Positions 4,732 through 13,012 of a stretch of 33,281 bases of DNA are shown here, in pieces (position 1 is the stretch's first letter; every line of letters starts with the position of its first letter). The DNA is from Methylobacter sp. (lineage in GTDB: Bacteria > Pseudomonadota > Gammaproteobacteria > Methylococcales > Methylomonadaceae). The stretch is taken from contig JAURVK010000040.1 in NCBI GenBank assembly GCA_030655535.1, positions 1 to 33,281 on the forward strand, given 5' to 3'. Below the pieces are notes generated by a model, which worked only from the letters and a program-made list of their open reading frames with translations, did not search any database and had not been told where the DNA came from. Made by a program: the position numbers and the translations under genes.

Positions 4732-5373
4732 ATGGCAAAACCATTAATACAAATGGCATTAGATTCATTGGATTTCGACCAAACAGTCGCACTGGCTACT
4801 TTAGTAGCGCCTCATGTTGATATTTTTGAAATCGGAACTCCATGCATTAAACACAATGGCGTTAACCTGGTTAGAGAGTTGAGAGCAAGATTTCCAGATA
4901 AATTACTGTTAGTCGACCTTAAAACAATGGACGCAGGTGAGTATGAAGCAACGCCTTTCTACGCAGCAGGCGCTGATATTTGTACAGTTTTAGGTGTATC
5001 CGGCCTTGCAACTTGTGCCGGTGTTATCAAAGCAGCAAATGCACACGGTGCAGAAGCTCAAATCGATTTAATTAATGTCGGCGATAAAATAGCTTGTGCA
5101 AGAGCAACTGCTGACGCGGGTGCGCATATTATGGGTATTCACACAGGTCTTGACGCACAGGCAGCAGGTCATACACCTTTTGCCGACTTGACTGATATCG
5201 CATCATTGGGATTGCCAGTTAGAATTTCAGTAGCCGGCGGCATTAACGCATCAACCGTACAGGATGTTGTTAGAGCCGGTGCAAATATTATCGTAGTTGG
5301 CGCAGCAATTTATGGTGCCGCATCGCCAGCTGATGCAGCACGCGAGATTCGCGAACTGGTTGACGCGGTATAA
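4732..5373 (+). CDS. hps: 3-hexulose-6-phosphate synthase
   Basis: Characteristic N-terminus MAKPLIQMALDSLDFDQTVALA, plus VDIFEIGTPCIKHNG, LLVDLKTMDAGEYEA and VAGGINASTV. Adjacent to a phi gene. Confidence 0.95.
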   Translation: MAKPLIQMALDSLDFDQTVALATLVAPHVDIFEIGTPCIKHNGVNLVRELRARFPDKLLLVDLKTMDAGEYEATPFYAAGADICTVLGVSGLATCAGVIKAANAHGAEAQIDLINVGDKIACARATADAGAHIMGIHTGLDAQAAGHTPFADLTDIASLGLPVRISVAGGINASTVQDVVRAGANIIVVGAAIYGAASPADAAREIRELVDAV

Positions 5374-5375
5374 TT

Positions 5376-5909
5376 ATGCATCAGCAACTTATCATAGAAA
5401 AGATTTCAGGTGTTCTTGAAGCTACAGATGATACGTATGATGTAAAGCTGACCCAATTGCTTGATAACGCCAAGCGTATATTTATTGCAGGTGCTGGACG
5501 TTCCAAGCTTGTCGGCAATTTCTTTGCAATGAGACTGGTTCACGGCGGTTACGATGTCAGTGTCGTAGGTGAAATTGTGACGCCAAGCATTAAAAACGGT
5601 GACTTATTGATCATTATTTCCGGATCAGGAGAAACTGAGCAATTAATAGCGTTCACTAAAAATGCAAAAAAAATAGGTGCTAACATCGTCTTGATCTCTG
5701 CGAAAAGCGGCTCAACCATTGGCGATATGGCAGATGCTGTATTTCAAATCGGTAGCCCGGAGCTGTATGGTAAGGTTTTAGGTATGCCTATGGGAACTGT
5801 GTTTGAGCTATCTACCTTGTTATTCTTGGAAGCAGCCGTTTCACATATTATCCATGAAAAGGGAATTGCTGAAGAAGTAATGAGAGAAAGACACGCTAAT
5901 TTAGAATAG
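5376..5909 (+). CDS. hxlB: 6-phospho-3-hexuloisomerase (SIS domain)
   Basis: SIS-domain protein (IFIAGAGRSKLVGNFFAMRLVHGGYDVSVVGEIVTPSIKNGDLLIIISGSGET) starting 2 nt after hps. Confidence 0.93.
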   Translation: MHQQLIIEKISGVLEATDDTYDVKLTQLLDNAKRIFIAGAGRSKLVGNFFAMRLVHGGYDVSVVGEIVTPSIKNGDLLIIISGSGETEQLIAFTKNAKKIGANIVLISAKSGSTIGDMADAVFQIGSPELYGKVLGMPMGTVFELSTLLFLEAAVSHIIHEKGIAEEVMRERHANLE

Positions 5910-5917
5910 CGGCACAG

Positions 5918-5950
5918 GAACGAGTGGCTATGACCACTCGTTCTATTCTT
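5918..5950 (+). terminator. Rho-independent-like terminator after hps-phi
   Basis: Perfect 10-bp stem GAACGAGTGG-CTATGA-CCACTCGTTC followed by TATTCTTTGT. Confidence 0.75.
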
Positions 5951-6043: not shown

Positions 6044-8029
6044 ATGACTTCGCGTCGAGAATTAGCGAACGCCATACGCGCTTTGAGCATGGATGCCGTG
6101 CAGAAAGCAAGCTCTGGGCATCCAGGCGCACCAATGGGCATGGCGGACATTGCCGAAGTTTTGTGGAATGATCACCTGAACCACAATCCGTCCAACCCGA
6201 AATGGTCGGATCGCGACCGTTTTGTTCTTTCCAATGGTCACGGTTCAATGCTGATTTATTCGCTATTGCATTTGAGTGGCTATGATTTGCCCATGAGTGA
6301 ATTAGCCTCTTTCCGTCAACTACATTCAAAATGCGCGGGACATCCCGAATACGGTTATGCGCCAGGCGTGGAAACAACCACAGGCCCGTTAGGACAAGGT
6401 ATTGCCAATGGGGTTGGTTTTGCGATGGCTGAGAAGCTGCTTGCAGACCAATTCAATCGTCCAGGCCACAAAGTCGTTGATCACCATACCTATGTGTTCA
6501 TGGGCGATGGCTGTTTGATGGAAGGCATTTCTCATGAAGCCTGTTCATTGGCGGGTACTTGGGGTTTAGGCAACTTAATCGCTTTCTGGGACGATAACGG
6601 TATTTCTATTGACGGCCATATTGAAGGCTGGTACACGGATGATACGGTAAAACGTTTTGAAGCTTACGGTTGGCATGTACTGTCAGTAGACGGACATAAT
6701 CCTGAAGAGATTTCTAAGGCAATTGTTATGGCTAAAGCGATGACTGATATGCCTTCATTAATCTGCTGCAAAACCACCATTGGTTTTGGATCGCCAAACA
6801 AACAAGGCACTCATGAATGTCATGGTGCGGCTTTAGGTCAGCCAGAAATTAATTTAACTAAAGCGGCTTTAGGTTGGGATCACGAAGCATTTATCATTCC
6901 AGAAGATGTTTATGCCGGCTGGGATGCTAAAGCAAAAGGCGCGAGAACCGAAGCGGCATGGGATACAAAGTTTGCAGCCTACGAGGCGGAATATCCGGAA
7001 TTGGCAGCAGAATTCAAACGCCGTATGGCGGGTGAACTACCGGCTGACTGGACGGCTGCGACTGAGGCATTGATTGCTGAAACCAATGCGGCAGCAGAAA
7101 ATCTTGCTACCCGTCAATCCTCACAAAAAGTAATTGGCGGATTAGCCCCTACATTACCTGAATTTTTAGGTGGTTCTGCGGACTTAACAGGCTCTAACTT
7201 AACCAGTTGCAGTAGCTTCAAGCATGTCAGCGGTAAAGAGATGGGGAATTATATCTCCTACGGTGTGCGTGAATTTGGCATGTACGCCATTATGAACGGT
7301 ATGACCTTACATGGCGGCTTATTGCCTTTTGGCGGAACATTCCATATGTTCTCTGATTATGCGAAAAGCGCTTTGCGTATGGCAGCGTTAATGAAAATTC
7401 GCACCATTGCTGTTTTAACGCATGACTCTATTGGTCAAGGGGAAGACGGCCCGACGCATCAGCCGATTGAGAATACTTCTGCGATGCGTTACATTCCGAA
7501 TATGGATGTTTGGCGACCTGCCGATACCACAGAAACAGCGGTCTCCTGGGTCATGGCAATTGAACGTATGACAGGGCCTTCAAGTTTAGTGTTAAGCCGT
7601 CAAGGCTTGCCTTTCATAGCGCGTACTGATGAACAAATTGCAGCCATCCGTAAAGGGGCGTACGTTGTTTCTGAAGCAGCAGGCAATGCTCAAGTTATCC
7701 TTATTGCAACCGGTTCGGAAGTTGATTTGGCAATAAAATCACAAGCAGCCTTAGCAGAAAAAGGTATTCAAGCGCGTGTTGTTTCAATGCCATCAACAAA
7801 CGTATTTGACCGTCAAGATCAAGCTTATAAAGACAGCGTATTAACACCCGGTGTAAAACGTGTTGCGATTGAAGCAGGTATTACTGATTTTTGGCGTAAA
7901 TATGTTGGTTTGGAAGGCGCAGTTGTCGGTATTGATACTTTCGGCGAATCTGCACCTGGCGGCGAATTGATGAAACACTTCGGCTTTACTGTTGAAAACG
8001 TCGTGAAAAACGTAGAAGCGGTACTTTAA
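6044..8029 (+). CDS. tkt: Transketolase
   Basis: 661 aa with [71 protein letters not shown] and [15 protein letters not shown]. Confidence 0.97.
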
Positions 8030-8172
8030 TTTTAAAAGTCATATTTGCGTTGGTGAGATGACGGGATATATTGATTGGGTGTGTTTAACCCGTTATTAAA
8101 TTAATATGACTAGATCGAAAATACAACGCAGATATGACTACTCTAAAACAACGCATAAAGGGGGATTCACAC

Positions 8173-8907
8173 GTGAAAATAAATAATTTGACGAATGGTT
8201 TAGTTGCTACGCTATTATTAGCCAGTCCCATAGTAGGGGCAGAAACTCAATATCCGGCGGCAGATTTCGAGCCAAAAGTAATTTATCAGGATGCTGAATA
8301 TATTGGCCAAAATAAGTCTGCATCTGCGGCGGTATCGACCAAGCAGGCCAAGTCGGCTGATGTGGACTCAAAATATCCAGCGGCAGACTTTGAACCAAAG
8401 GTTTTATATAAGGATGCCGACTATAAGAAAAGCACGGCTACAGGAAGCTCTTCGGCATCTGAAGGCGTTGCAGCAGTAAGTGAGAAAAGCACGATTACAG
8501 AAAGTTCTTCGACATCTGAACGCGTTACAACAGATGATGTAGCAGTAAGTGGAGTGGAAAAAGTGGAAGACGAATCAATGCTGAGTTATTTGTTCGGGTT
8601 AGCTGTTTTTGCTGTGGCTGGGTATGCCTTCTTGAGAAAACGTGAGGAAAAAGTAAAAGCCAGCGGTACGCCAGTTTATTCAGGCCATGTCAGTGGGCTT
8701 TCAGGTGTTGCTCGATATATGAGAAAACATAATATGTCTGCGTTAACCGGTGTTGCCAGATACTTGGAAAGTCAGGTTGTTTCTGCAAAAGATGCAGCGG
8801 TGTCAAGCGGCGTTGAAAAGTATCTTGAAAAACAGGCTAAATCTGCACAAGAAAAAGCAGCGCAAGCGGGAACCGGAGTTGAAAAGTACATGCGCAACCG
8901 GGGGTGA
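8173..8907 (+). CDS. Predicted signal-peptide/single-TM protein with two YPAADFEPKVxYxDAxY repeats and four GVxxY(L/M) repeats
   Basis: The GTG at 8173 is preceded by AAAGGGGG and starts MKINNLTNGLVATLLLASPIVGAET, a signal-like N-terminus. Two 17-aa repeats follow, then a Ser-rich linker, the TM segment MLSYLFGLAVFAVAGYAFL followed by RKREEK, then SGVARYM, TGVARYL, SGVEKYL and TGVEKYM. No named family recognised. Confidence 0.8.
   Translation: MKINNLTNGLVATLLLASPIVGAETQYPAADFEPKVIYQDAEYIGQNKSASAAVSTKQAKSADVDSKYPAADFEPKVLYKDADYKKSTATGSSSASEGVAAVSEKSTITESSSTSERVTTDDVAVSGVEKVEDESMLSYLFGLAVFAVAGYAFLRKREEKVKASGTPVYSGHVSGLSGVARYMRKHNMSALTGVARYLESQVVSAKDAAVSSGVEKYLEKQAKSAQEKAAQAGTGVEKYMRNRG
8251..8301 (+). 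repeat. YPAADFEPKVIYQDAEY coding repeat, copy 1
   Basis: 17-codon unit with a homologous copy at 8374-8424. Confidence 0.85.
8374..8424 (+). repeat. YPAADFEPKVLYKDADY coding repeat, copy 2
   Basis: 17-codon unit homologous to 8251-8301. Confidence 0.85.
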
Positions 8908-8910
8908 TAA

Positions 8911-10026
8911 GTGGATCAAAATTACCTAGTCAATTTAGTGTCAGGACTTTTTGGTTCCAAAAGGGAAGTTGAAACTCAAACCAGTTCCCCCGCATATTTT
9001 AGTGATCCTAATGGACTGACTGGAGTTGATAGGTATTTGAAAAGCCAGGAAGTTGTGCCGGTGCCAAGTGGAGTTGCGAGGTATTTGAGCAGTCTGGAAG
9101 AGTTGTTGGCAACCAATGAAGTTGCTGATGCTTTGGAAAGTCACGAAGAAGTGTTAATAGCTGATGAGGATCTCGGCAATCAGGAAGGCGAGGTATCATT
9201 GAGCAGTGTTGCCAAGTACCTGGAGAAATTGGATCAGCATCCTGTAAGCAGCGTTGCCAAATATATGGCAAGGCAAGCTATTGTCGCAAAAAAAGCACCG
9301 AAAATTAGTGGTGTCGCTAAGTATATGACCCAGCATGCTGTCGTTACAAAAAAAGCGCCCGTAGTAAGCAGTGTCGCCAGGTATGTGGAAAAACAAGCCA
9401 ACTCTCCCGCTATAAGTGGTGTTTCTAAGTACTTAATAAGGCAGTCTATATCTGCTAGAAATACAGTAGCAGCAACCGGAGTAGCAAAATATCTTGAAGA
9501 CGAGTCCATCGTTGCGAGAAAAGCGGCGGCGGCGACTATAGTTGCCAGATATTTGGAAGAGCAGCGCATTTCCGCAAAAGAGCAAGAAAAAGAACAAGAA
9601 CTAGAACAGCAGTTGGCTAGAGAAAAAGAGATGGAAAAAGCGGGCGAAAGGGCATCTGCAGCGGCCGCTGCAACCGGAGTGGCTCGATATTTGGAAGAGC
9701 AAGCAATTTTGGCAAAAGAAAAGCCCCCGGTAAGCGGTGTTGCCAAATACGTGGCAAAACAAATATTATCCAGAAAAGAAGCGCCTGTTTTGACTGGCGT
9801 AGAAAAGTACATGGCAAGACAAGCAATATACGTAAAAAAAGCTCCGATTATAAGTGGCGTTGCAAAGTACGTGGAAAAAGAGGCGTTGACCGCAAAAATA
9901 TTGCCTAAAGCAAGTGGAGTCACCAAATATATGCAAAAACAGGCTGTATTGCCGCCCTCAAGCGGGGTCTCTAAATACGTGAGTAGGCAAGTTATTGCTG
10001 CAAGAGCAATACCTGAAAAAGTGTGA
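8911..10026 (+). CDS. Repeat protein with 15 copies of the [ST][GSI]Vx[KR]Y[LMV] motif; no TM segment apparent
   Basis: 371-aa ORF starting at GTG 8911, 3 nt after the upstream stop. Motifs in order: TGVDRYL, SGVARYL, SSVAKYL, SSVAKYM, SGVAKYM, SSVARYV, SGVSKYL, TGVAKYL, TIVARYL, TGVARYL, SGVAKYV, TGVEKYM, SGVAKYV, SGVTKYM, SGVSKYV. Spacing is usually 20 or 16 aa. Confidence 0.85.
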   Translation: MDQNYLVNLVSGLFGSKREVETQTSSPAYFSDPNGLTGVDRYLKSQEVVPVPSGVARYLSSLEELLATNEVADALESHEEVLIADEDLGNQEGEVSLSSVAKYLEKLDQHPVSSVAKYMARQAIVAKKAPKISGVAKYMTQHAVVTKKAPVVSSVARYVEKQANSPAISGVSKYLIRQSISARNTVAATGVAKYLEDESIVARKAAAATIVARYLEEQRISAKEQEKEQELEQQLAREKEMEKAGERASAAAAATGVARYLEEQAILAKEKPPVSGVAKYVAKQILSRKEAPVLTGVEKYMARQAIYVKKAPIISGVAKYVEKEALTAKILPKASGVTKYMQKQAVLPPSSGVSKYVSRQVIAARAIPEKV

Positions 10027-10405: not shown

Positions 10406-11392
10406 ATGGCGAAGACTTTACTTGAACAACTGAGAAAAATGACTGTTGTTGTAGCCGATACTGGTGATATCCAGGCTATTGAAACTTTCACTCCGCATGA
10501 TGCGACAACTAATCCATCCTTAATTACTGCAGCTGCTCAAATGCCACAATATCAAGGGATTGTCGATGATACCTTGAAAGGCGCCAGAGAAACTTTAGGT
10601 AAAGATGCATCTGCAGCGCAAGTGGCTACCCTTGCTTTCGAGCGGCTAGCTGTTTCTTTCGGGCACAAGATACTTGAGGTAATTCCGGGTCGTGTTTCTA
10701 CTGAAGTAGATGCTCGCCTTTCCTTCGATACTGATGCCAGTATCGCCGTAGGTCGCGATTTGATTGCCATGTATGAAGCGCAAGGTGTTTCACGCGAACG
10801 AGTGCTGATTAAAATTGCAGCGACTTGGGAAGGAATACAGGCGGCCGCAGTTCTTGAAAAAGAAGGTATTCACTGTAATCTGACCTTATTATTCGGTCTG
10901 CATCAGGCAATCGCCTGTGCCGAGAATGGAATTACGCTGATTTCACCTTTTGTTGGCCGTATTCTTGACTGGTATAAAAAAGACACTGGTCGTGATTCTT
11001 ATGCGCCGGCTGAAGATCCTGGTGTGTTGTCTGTTACAGAAATCTATAACTACTACAAAAAATTCGGCTATAAAACCGAGGTTATGGGTGCAAGCTTCCG
11101 TAACATTGGCGAGATTGTTGAATTGGCAGGTTGTGATTTATTGACCATTGCGCCGGCCTTATTAGCTGAACTCCAGTCTACAGAAGGTGATCTGGAACGT
11201 AAGTTGGATCCGAAAAATGCAAGCAATGCGTCAATTGAAAAAATGACAATTGACAAAGCAACTTTTGATCGTATGCATGCCGAAAATCGTATGGCTTCTG
11301 ACAAGCTCGCAGAAGGTATCGATGGCTTCACCAAAGCGTTAGAGTCTTTAGAAGGAATTCTTTCGGCACGGTTAGCGGTTTTAGAAGGATAA
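10406..11392 (+). CDS. tal: Transaldolase
   Basis: [72 protein letters not shown] and [14 protein letters not shown] are typical of TalB. RBS AAAGGAG lies upstream. Confidence 0.96.
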
Positions 11393-11804: not shown

Positions 11805-13012
11805 CAGGGCTACCTCATTAAAAAATAGCCCCCCGTAAACCAAATTTAGGATAATGGCGAGCTAAACCACACTCAAGGAACCATAAGAAATGGATTTTTT
11901 GGATATTTTTGGACAGCTCGACGATCCCCGCATTGAACGGAAAAAACTGCACCCTCATGCCCGAAATACTGCTACTGACGTTGTGTGCTGTCATTTGCGG
12001 GGCAGAAAGCTGGGATGATATGAGGCATTTGGCAAGTCAAAGCCGGATTTTTTACGCCAGTATCTGCCGTATAAGAACGGTATGCCGAGCGATGACACCC
12101 TGCGGCGGTTTTTCCGAGCCATTGATAGCACGCAGTTCCAGCGTTTGTTTGTGGAATGGATTCGGGTCTGGTTAAGTCCTGAAGTGGCGGGTAAAGTGGT
12201 GGCCATTGATGGTAAAACGCTACGTGGCAGCTATGATGGCGAGCAGTCGCCGATACACTTCGTGTCAGCTTTTGCCAGCGAAGCGGGGATCGTCTTAGGG
12301 CAGATTAAAATCCGTGAAAAATCTAATGAGATTACCGCGATTCCTGAACTATTGAACTGGCTGGATGTGCGCGGCGCTATCGTGACTATTGATGCCATGG
12401 GTTGCCAAAAAGCCATCGCCGAGAAAATCATCGATAAAGGTGGCGATTACCTATTGGCGCTTAAAGGCAACCAAAGCAGCCTGCATAATGATGTCCGCCT
12501 GCATTTTGAACAGACCGCCCCGGCATCGCTGACCCGGATGGCTCGTGCTGAAAGCCTTGATAAAGGCCACGGGCGTATCGAAGTCCGGCAGTGCCGGGTC
12601 AGTACCGATATTGACTGGCTTAGGGCGAGTCACCCGGAGTGGAAAAATCTGGGCGGCATTATCGCTATTGATAGTGAGCGGCACATCGGCGATACAACGA
12701 CTCAAGAAACCCGTTACTTTATCAGCAGTTCGCTGGCCTCGGCAGCGCAGATGCTGGCCGCCGTGCGTTTGCACTGGGGTATCGAAAACCAGTTGCATTG
12801 GGTGCTGGATATGTCTTTCGGTGAAGACCAGAGCCGCATACGTAAAGATAATGCCCCAACCAATGTCGCTATTATCCGTCATGCCGCACTGAACATGATA
12901 CGACAGGCTCAAAAGAAACGGATGTCCATCAAACGTATGCGTAAAGTAGCGGGCTGGGATGATTCTGCCTTAACTGATATTTTGGCTCAGGTTTTTTAAT
13001 GAGGTAGCCCTG
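11805..13012 (+). mobile_element. ISAs1-family-like insertion sequence, 1208 bp, with perfect 21-bp terminal inverted repeats
   Basis: IRL CAGGGCTACCTCATTAAAAAA (11805-11825) is the exact reverse complement of IRR TTTTTTAATGAGGTAGCCCTG (12992-13012). Both ends are flanked by the direct repeat GCGTTTACCT. Confidence 0.95.
11890..12999 (+). pseudogene. ISAs1-family transposase with two compensating frameshifts in the N-terminal part
   Basis: Frame 1 reads MDFLDIFGQLDDPRIERKKLHP. Frame 2 then reads MPEILLLTLCAVICGAESWDDM. Frame 1 resumes as GKSKPDFLRQYLPYKNGMPSDDTLRRFFRAID and continues to TAA 12999, which lies inside IRR. The long ORF 12082-12999 carries VAIDGKTLRGS, ALKGNQ and HWGIENQLHWVLDMSFGEDQSRIR. 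Confidence 0.85.

Follow-up and report, generated by a model that had tools for sequence, protein, structure and literature searches.

The analysed window, a stretch of 33,281 nucleotides from Methylobacter sp., carries the gene order hps-phi-tkt-X1-X2-tal on its + strand (Table 1). The repeat protein X2 had been placed between transketolase and transaldolase by an earlier sequence-only reading of the window. Both genes do flank the site, but X2 is not a direct neighbour of transketolase: X1, which bears the same motif and was not reported in that reading, separates the two, and its stop codon lies 3 nt ahead of the X2 start. Between phi and tkt we observed a terminator-like hairpin of 11 pairs (5917-5944), and given this hairpin hps-phi and tkt-X1-X2 may be separate transcripts. 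A transposase-like ORF, labelled ISAs1 from its own sequence, lies just 3' of tal (12082-12999).

Table 1. Coordinates of genes and features in the window
Feature	Position	Strand	Basis or details
hps (3-hexulose-6-phosphate synthase), predicted client	4732..5373	+	PDB sequence matches 3f4w, 3ajx; linkage
HPS codon L58, covaries with motif proteins	4903..4905	+	HPS alignment
HPS codon R164, covaries with motif proteins	5221..5223	+	HPS alignment
phi (6-phospho-3-hexuloisomerase)	5376..5909	+	naming in the sequence-only reading and position directly 3' of hps; conserved neighbour
tkt (transketolase)	6044..8029	+	profile search
X1, membrane-anchor protein	8134..8907	+	sequence features, predicted model, homologues
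X1 periplasmic motif 1, YPAADFEPKVIYQ	8251..8289	+	sequence
X1 periplasmic motif 2, YPAADFEPKVLYK	8374..8412	+	sequence
X1 transmembrane segment, MLSYLFGLAVFAVAGYAFL, then RKREEK (positive-inside)	8578..8634	+	sequence, predicted model
X1 cytoplasmic tail motifs	8701..8892	+	starts 8701, 8746, 8806, 8872
X2, 371-aa soluble repeat protein, GTG start	8911..10026	+	motif count, predicted model, family-wide homologues
X2 motif array	9019..9981	+	copy starts 9019, 9067, 9202, 9247, 9307, 9367, 9415, 9475, 9535, 9673, 9733, 9793, 9853, 9913, 9961
tal (transaldolase)	10406..11392	+	profile search

The pattern [ST][GSI]Vx[KR]Y[LMV] matched X2 exactly 15 times, as the sequence-only reading had counted. 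The copies begin at residues 37, 53, 98, 113, 133, 153, 169, 189, 209, 255, 275, 295, 315, 335 and 351, with successive spacings of 16, 45, 15, 20, 20, 16, 20, 20, 46, 20, 20, 20, 20 and 16 aa. In 2000 shuffles of X2, a looser form of the pattern occurred 0.06 times on average and at most twice. Because the codons differ among copies (GTT, GTC, GTA or GTG for V; TAT or TAC for Y), with a mean DNA identity among repeat units of 0.49, the repeat is not the product of recent slippage. Against four Methylobacter orthologues, dN/dS was 0.05-0.09 in the motifs versus 0.23-0.37 in the linkers, and the V and Y of the motif showed zero amino-acid change across X2 and these orthologues. The motifs are thus under strong protein-level selection, which bears out the earlier argument for constraint on the protein over slippage of the DNA.

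The AlphaFold2 model of X2, of low confidence overall (pTM 0.22), shows an N-terminal helix, the 15 motifs, each starting one short helix, and a long central helix at about residues 191-254. Copy 9 (TIVARYL, residue 209) lies inside this conserved central helix and is complete as a motif in only some of the orthologues. The N-terminal helix of the window protein is weakly amphipathic (muH 0.23). Taken at their low confidence, the models fit beads on a string with no globular fold.

X1 opens with a signal peptide, followed by two YPAADFEPKV motifs in the periplasmic part, one TM helix, and a cytoplasmic tail with four GVx[KR]Y motifs; its AlphaFold model is also of low confidence (pTM 0.16). 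Its true start is probably the GTG at 8173, which has the Shine-Dalgarno sequence AAAGGGGG just 5' and agrees with the orthologue starts. Elsewhere in the same genome (contig C94, L114:4535-4777), an 80-aa periplasmic protein carries two YPAANFQPKVIY motifs resembling those of X1. It sits 3' of a predicted ABC transporter (SBP, permease, and ATPase) and recurs in related genomes (L115, L116 and L118-L121).

Distribution and gene neighbourhood of the motif proteins

Within the window's family, Methylomonadaceae, X1 was found in 149 of the 151 genomes and X2 in 128 of the 151. Synteny was read by BLAST to the window genes. The full hps-phi-tkt-X1-X2-tal order was recovered in 65 of 80 named loci of a GTDB-based collection and recurs across Methylomonadaceae genera. 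X2 was absent from two of these loci (Methylobacter marinus A45 and Methylobacter sp. BlB1), and nearly all the other incomplete loci were interrupted by contig ends. Additionally, duplicated hps cassettes bring X2 along, as hps-phi-tkt-X2 (L064, L071), hps-phi-X2 (L077), or hps-tkt-X1'-X2 (L072, L092), and hps is the sole enzyme gene common to all of them. In the last two, which are second hps-tkt cassettes, the X1-like gene (L072:8932-9219, L092:8991-9269) encodes a short secreted protein with YPA motifs, without the TM helix or the motif tail, and X2 comes next.

Linkage to hps was found in independent gene orders in the families f1, f4 and f10; the family names given here for f4, f6, f7 and f10 are guesses. 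In f4, probably Methylococcaceae, X1 lies directly 5' of hps, whereas L181 and L182 keep the Methylomonadaceae gene order and L180 resembles the duplicated RuMP locus known for M. capsulatus (PMC517821). In f10, probably Methylophaga-like, the order hps1 - soluble motif protein - tal - hps2 - phi was present in nearly all of 40 loci; in eight of the 40, the motif gene is present with variant motifs. The f10 protein has no TM helix. Across relatives, the number of motif copies per protein ranges from about 2 to 21.

Of the 369 genomes in a class-wide gammaproteobacterial draw, none of them from Methylophilaceae, six had HPS, and these six were also the ones with a motif protein; three of the six belong to f10, outside the window's order. 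The sequence-only reading had named homologues mainly in organisms lacking RuMP genes as a point against its scaffold idea; the outcome was the opposite, and the RuMP association holds in the order and beyond.

Some motif proteins sit away from hps, and the motif may therefore have further clients or roles. A DNA-pattern scan of seven genomes was used to find them; its forward and control counts overlap, and single matches are weak. Three off-locus proteins (L257:8838-9671, L258:8779-9555, and L262:8942-9772) have an N-terminal helix, four to five GVxKYL motifs, and a shared conserved C-terminal Cys/His stretch (CQAxTxKGxQC...C.QH); they matched no Pfam family above cutoff, and hps is not adjacent to them. 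In f4 genomes, we observed a TM protein with seven motifs (L261:8980-9663), an X1 paralogue with two (L260:8338-9201), and a 129-aa protein with four (L259:9027-9416).

Searches of Pfam, NCBIfam and PDB sequences returned no credible known family for X1 or X2, and the sequence-only reading had likewise recognised no named family for X2; an open-literature search found no paper that describes the X1/X2 pair or a scaffold for HPS. As judged by these searches, the motif proteins, carried by methane-oxidising and some methanol-using bacteria, are previously undescribed and covered by no curated family. U1snRNP70_N (PF12220) scored 28 bits on whole X2, above its own cutoff of 23, and 13.8 bits on X1, below it; none of nine related motif proteins exceeded the cutoff. 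On X2 the score accumulates along the E/K-rich central helix, and no stretch passes alone. We rejected homology across the domain and regard the match as compositional because it is diffuse over this helix and X1 and the off-locus relatives fall below the cutoff.

Covariation with two residues of HPS

Among 83 aligned HPS sequences, L58 and R164 were invariant in f1 (40/40), f4 with X1 (16/16), six HPS-PHI fusions, and f10 HPS1, and were absent from nine f6 sequences and from G171, G177 and G186. In 40 further f10 loci, HPS1 carried both residues and HPS2 never did; apart from f10 HPS2, every HPS from a genome with motif proteins keeps the pair. In a scan of 213 HPS columns, only 58 and 164 separated motif-bearing from motif-less groups, with a worst-clade margin of 0.98 against 0.20 for the next best column; the shortfall of 0.02 probably reflects a single HPS1 that the N-terminus rule misgrouped. 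The same scan, which covered HPS, PHI, and TAL, gave no discriminating column in PHI (best 0.51) or TAL (best 0.59), controls that include fewer sequences from motif-less genomes and offer no contrast between paralogues.

The HPS tree, in which several forks have low support, places f10 within the clade carrying L58 and R164 and G171/G186 beside or near its base. Because f10 falls inside this clade, its HPS2 lost both residues. The changes amount to about two evolutionary transitions, and therefore the sequences, though many, are not independent.

Alignment to the sequences of HPS/KGPDC structures, combined with TIM-barrel topology, suggests that L58 and R164 lie at the barrel bottom, at the N termini of strands beta3 and beta7, opposite the active-site face. 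Each is presumably four to six positions ahead of active-site or phosphate-binding residues. The motif proteins covary with a putative HPS surface, subject to the caveat of about two transitions; the side chains may instead point into the barrel bottom, and the covariation may come from internal packing.

A putative HPS scaffold and competing readings

From the family, its linkage, the selection on the motifs, the covariation, and the architecture, we infer that X1 and X2 probably constitute a two-part RuMP scaffold that docks HPS and is membrane-anchored in methanotrophs. The motif itself likely binds HPS: the short, helix-forming [ST]-G-V-x-[KR]-Y-[LMI] would most likely be the docking motif, recognising an HPS site that depends on L58 and R164. 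X2, which has an N-terminal helix and strings its 15 motifs along a flexible chain, would cross-link several HPS molecules, and we give such clustering slightly better than an even chance. Through its one TM helix and the four motifs of its cytoplasmic tail, X1 could tether the HPS cluster to the membrane. Periplasmic methanol dehydrogenase is the producer of formaldehyde, and HPS held at the membrane near it would capture, or channel, the toxic product at entry; for this role of X1 the chances seem a little short of even. Membrane tethering is not universal because the f10 motif protein lacks a TM helix. The idea of a scaffold for RuMP enzymes in the sequence-only reading is therefore upheld in its RuMP association, whereas the likely client narrows from HPS, PHI, TKT and TAL to HPS.

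Formaldehyde in these bacteria is both a carbon source and a poison, and its safe capture is an old question. In work of the 1970s, the HPS of methane-grown Methylococcus was reportedly large and particle-associated, and tethering by X1, if true, would account for this. More tentatively, and with the balance somewhat against it, X2 may condense HPS into a shell-less 'formaldehyde-fixing body' that X1 pins to the membranes where formaldehyde enters, which would possibly explain earlier descriptions of HPS bound to membranes in cells grown on methane. A dedicated HPS scaffold, if true, would add a new type of metabolic organisation to those of methane oxidisers, its genes being present in nearly all sampled Methylomonadaceae and in other RuMP gammaproteobacteria, and would offer a ready-made short docking motif for synthetic methylotrophy.

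Four other readings were weighed. The motif might dock PHI, transketolase or transaldolase, or several of these, with the HPS linkage merely operon-derived, as the flanking tkt and tal of the main arrangement and the position of the f10 motif gene between hps1 and tal could suggest. However, the non-hps neighbours vary (f10 is without tkt, L072 and L092 are without phi, and the hps-phi-X2 cassette of L077 is without tkt and tal), and among HPS, PHI and TAL only HPS has discriminating columns, two in number, so we consider this unlikely. A similarly low probability is assigned to binding of HPS mainly for regulation, as an activity or sequestration switch with CP12-like logic. The same linkage and covariation data agree with such a switch, and the predicted site, remote from the active site, could be allosteric, but the high and variable copy number and the TM anchor suit avidity and placement better than regulation.

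Still less probable is that X1 and X2 organise intracytoplasmic membranes or particulate methane monooxygenase, the RuMP link being co-expression only. X1 is indeed a membrane protein, and it carries a periplasmic YPA motif specific to methanotrophs, which also occurs in small periplasmic proteins elsewhere. Nevertheless, AMO/PmoA was found in none of the 11 f10 genomes, which do have motif proteins, whereas motif proteins were not detected in AMO/PmoA-bearing G171, G177 and G186 or in f6, f7 and f8, for each of which the one genome checked for PmoA has it. The motif is therefore not tracking methane oxidation, and this distribution lowers the membrane reading; moreover, the YPA-TM proteins of f6 and f2 have no motif tail, and their genes show no linkage to hps. 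Equally improbable is that L58 and R164 mark an HPS subfamily, through catalysis or packing, and that the motif serves self-association or binds nucleic acid or lipid: the small number of transitions, the possibly internal barrel-bottom residues, and the off-locus motif proteins, some with the Cys/His domain, agree with it, but f10 HPS2 lost both residues from an ancestor that had them while the genome keeps a motif gene beside HPS1, and across several gene orders hps is the neighbour that does not change.

Likeness to Rubisco linkers

A docking scaffold of X1 and X2 would be analogous to EPYC1/CsLinker and to the CsoS2 N-terminus, and homologous with neither. EPYC1 and CsLinker are pyrenoid Rubisco linkers, for which a spacing of 20-120 aa serves as a criterion (PMC11570498). 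The likeness lies in low complexity, in repeated helices of about ten residues on flexible linkers, and in one carbon-fixing enzyme as specific client with conserved partner residues, the client of X1/X2 being predicted. With 15 motifs and one helix each, X2 has the EPYC1-type arrangement of repeated helices on disordered linkers, and its spacing of 15-46 aa overlaps the 20-120 aa range, although some spacings are below 20 and are thus shorter (PMC11570498). In contrast, X1/X2 are bacterial and unrelated in sequence, their predicted client is HPS and not Rubisco, the TM partner X1 bears the same motif, and condensation of a client by X2 is putative.

The N-terminal region of CsoS2, from the alpha-carboxysome, contains four repeats with the motif RxxxxxRRxxxxxxGK (PMC10614612). 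Like X2, CsoS2 is a disordered protein of bacteria in which a short linear motif is repeated, and it is encoded beside its carbon-fixing client, which for X2 is a predicted one. However, its motif is unrelated to that of X1/X2, with none visible in either protein, and CsoS2 also binds shell proteins. No carboxysome shell or Rubisco genes were seen beside X1/X2 in the ORF listing or by BLAST to the window genes; the neighbours are hps, phi, tkt, tal, dhaK/L and pgp. Since there is no sequence relation, the predicted client is another enzyme, and a membrane partner is present, the principle is known whereas the family and the predicted client are new. A formaldehyde-fixing body, if true, would be the first case in C1 assimilation of the linker principle seen in pyrenoids and carboxysomes. 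The off-locus proteins of L258, L259 and L262 weakly resembled the Pfam family 'Diatom pyrenoid component 2', at E 0.005-0.017 and well short of its cutoff, which is probably a chance effect of repeat composition.
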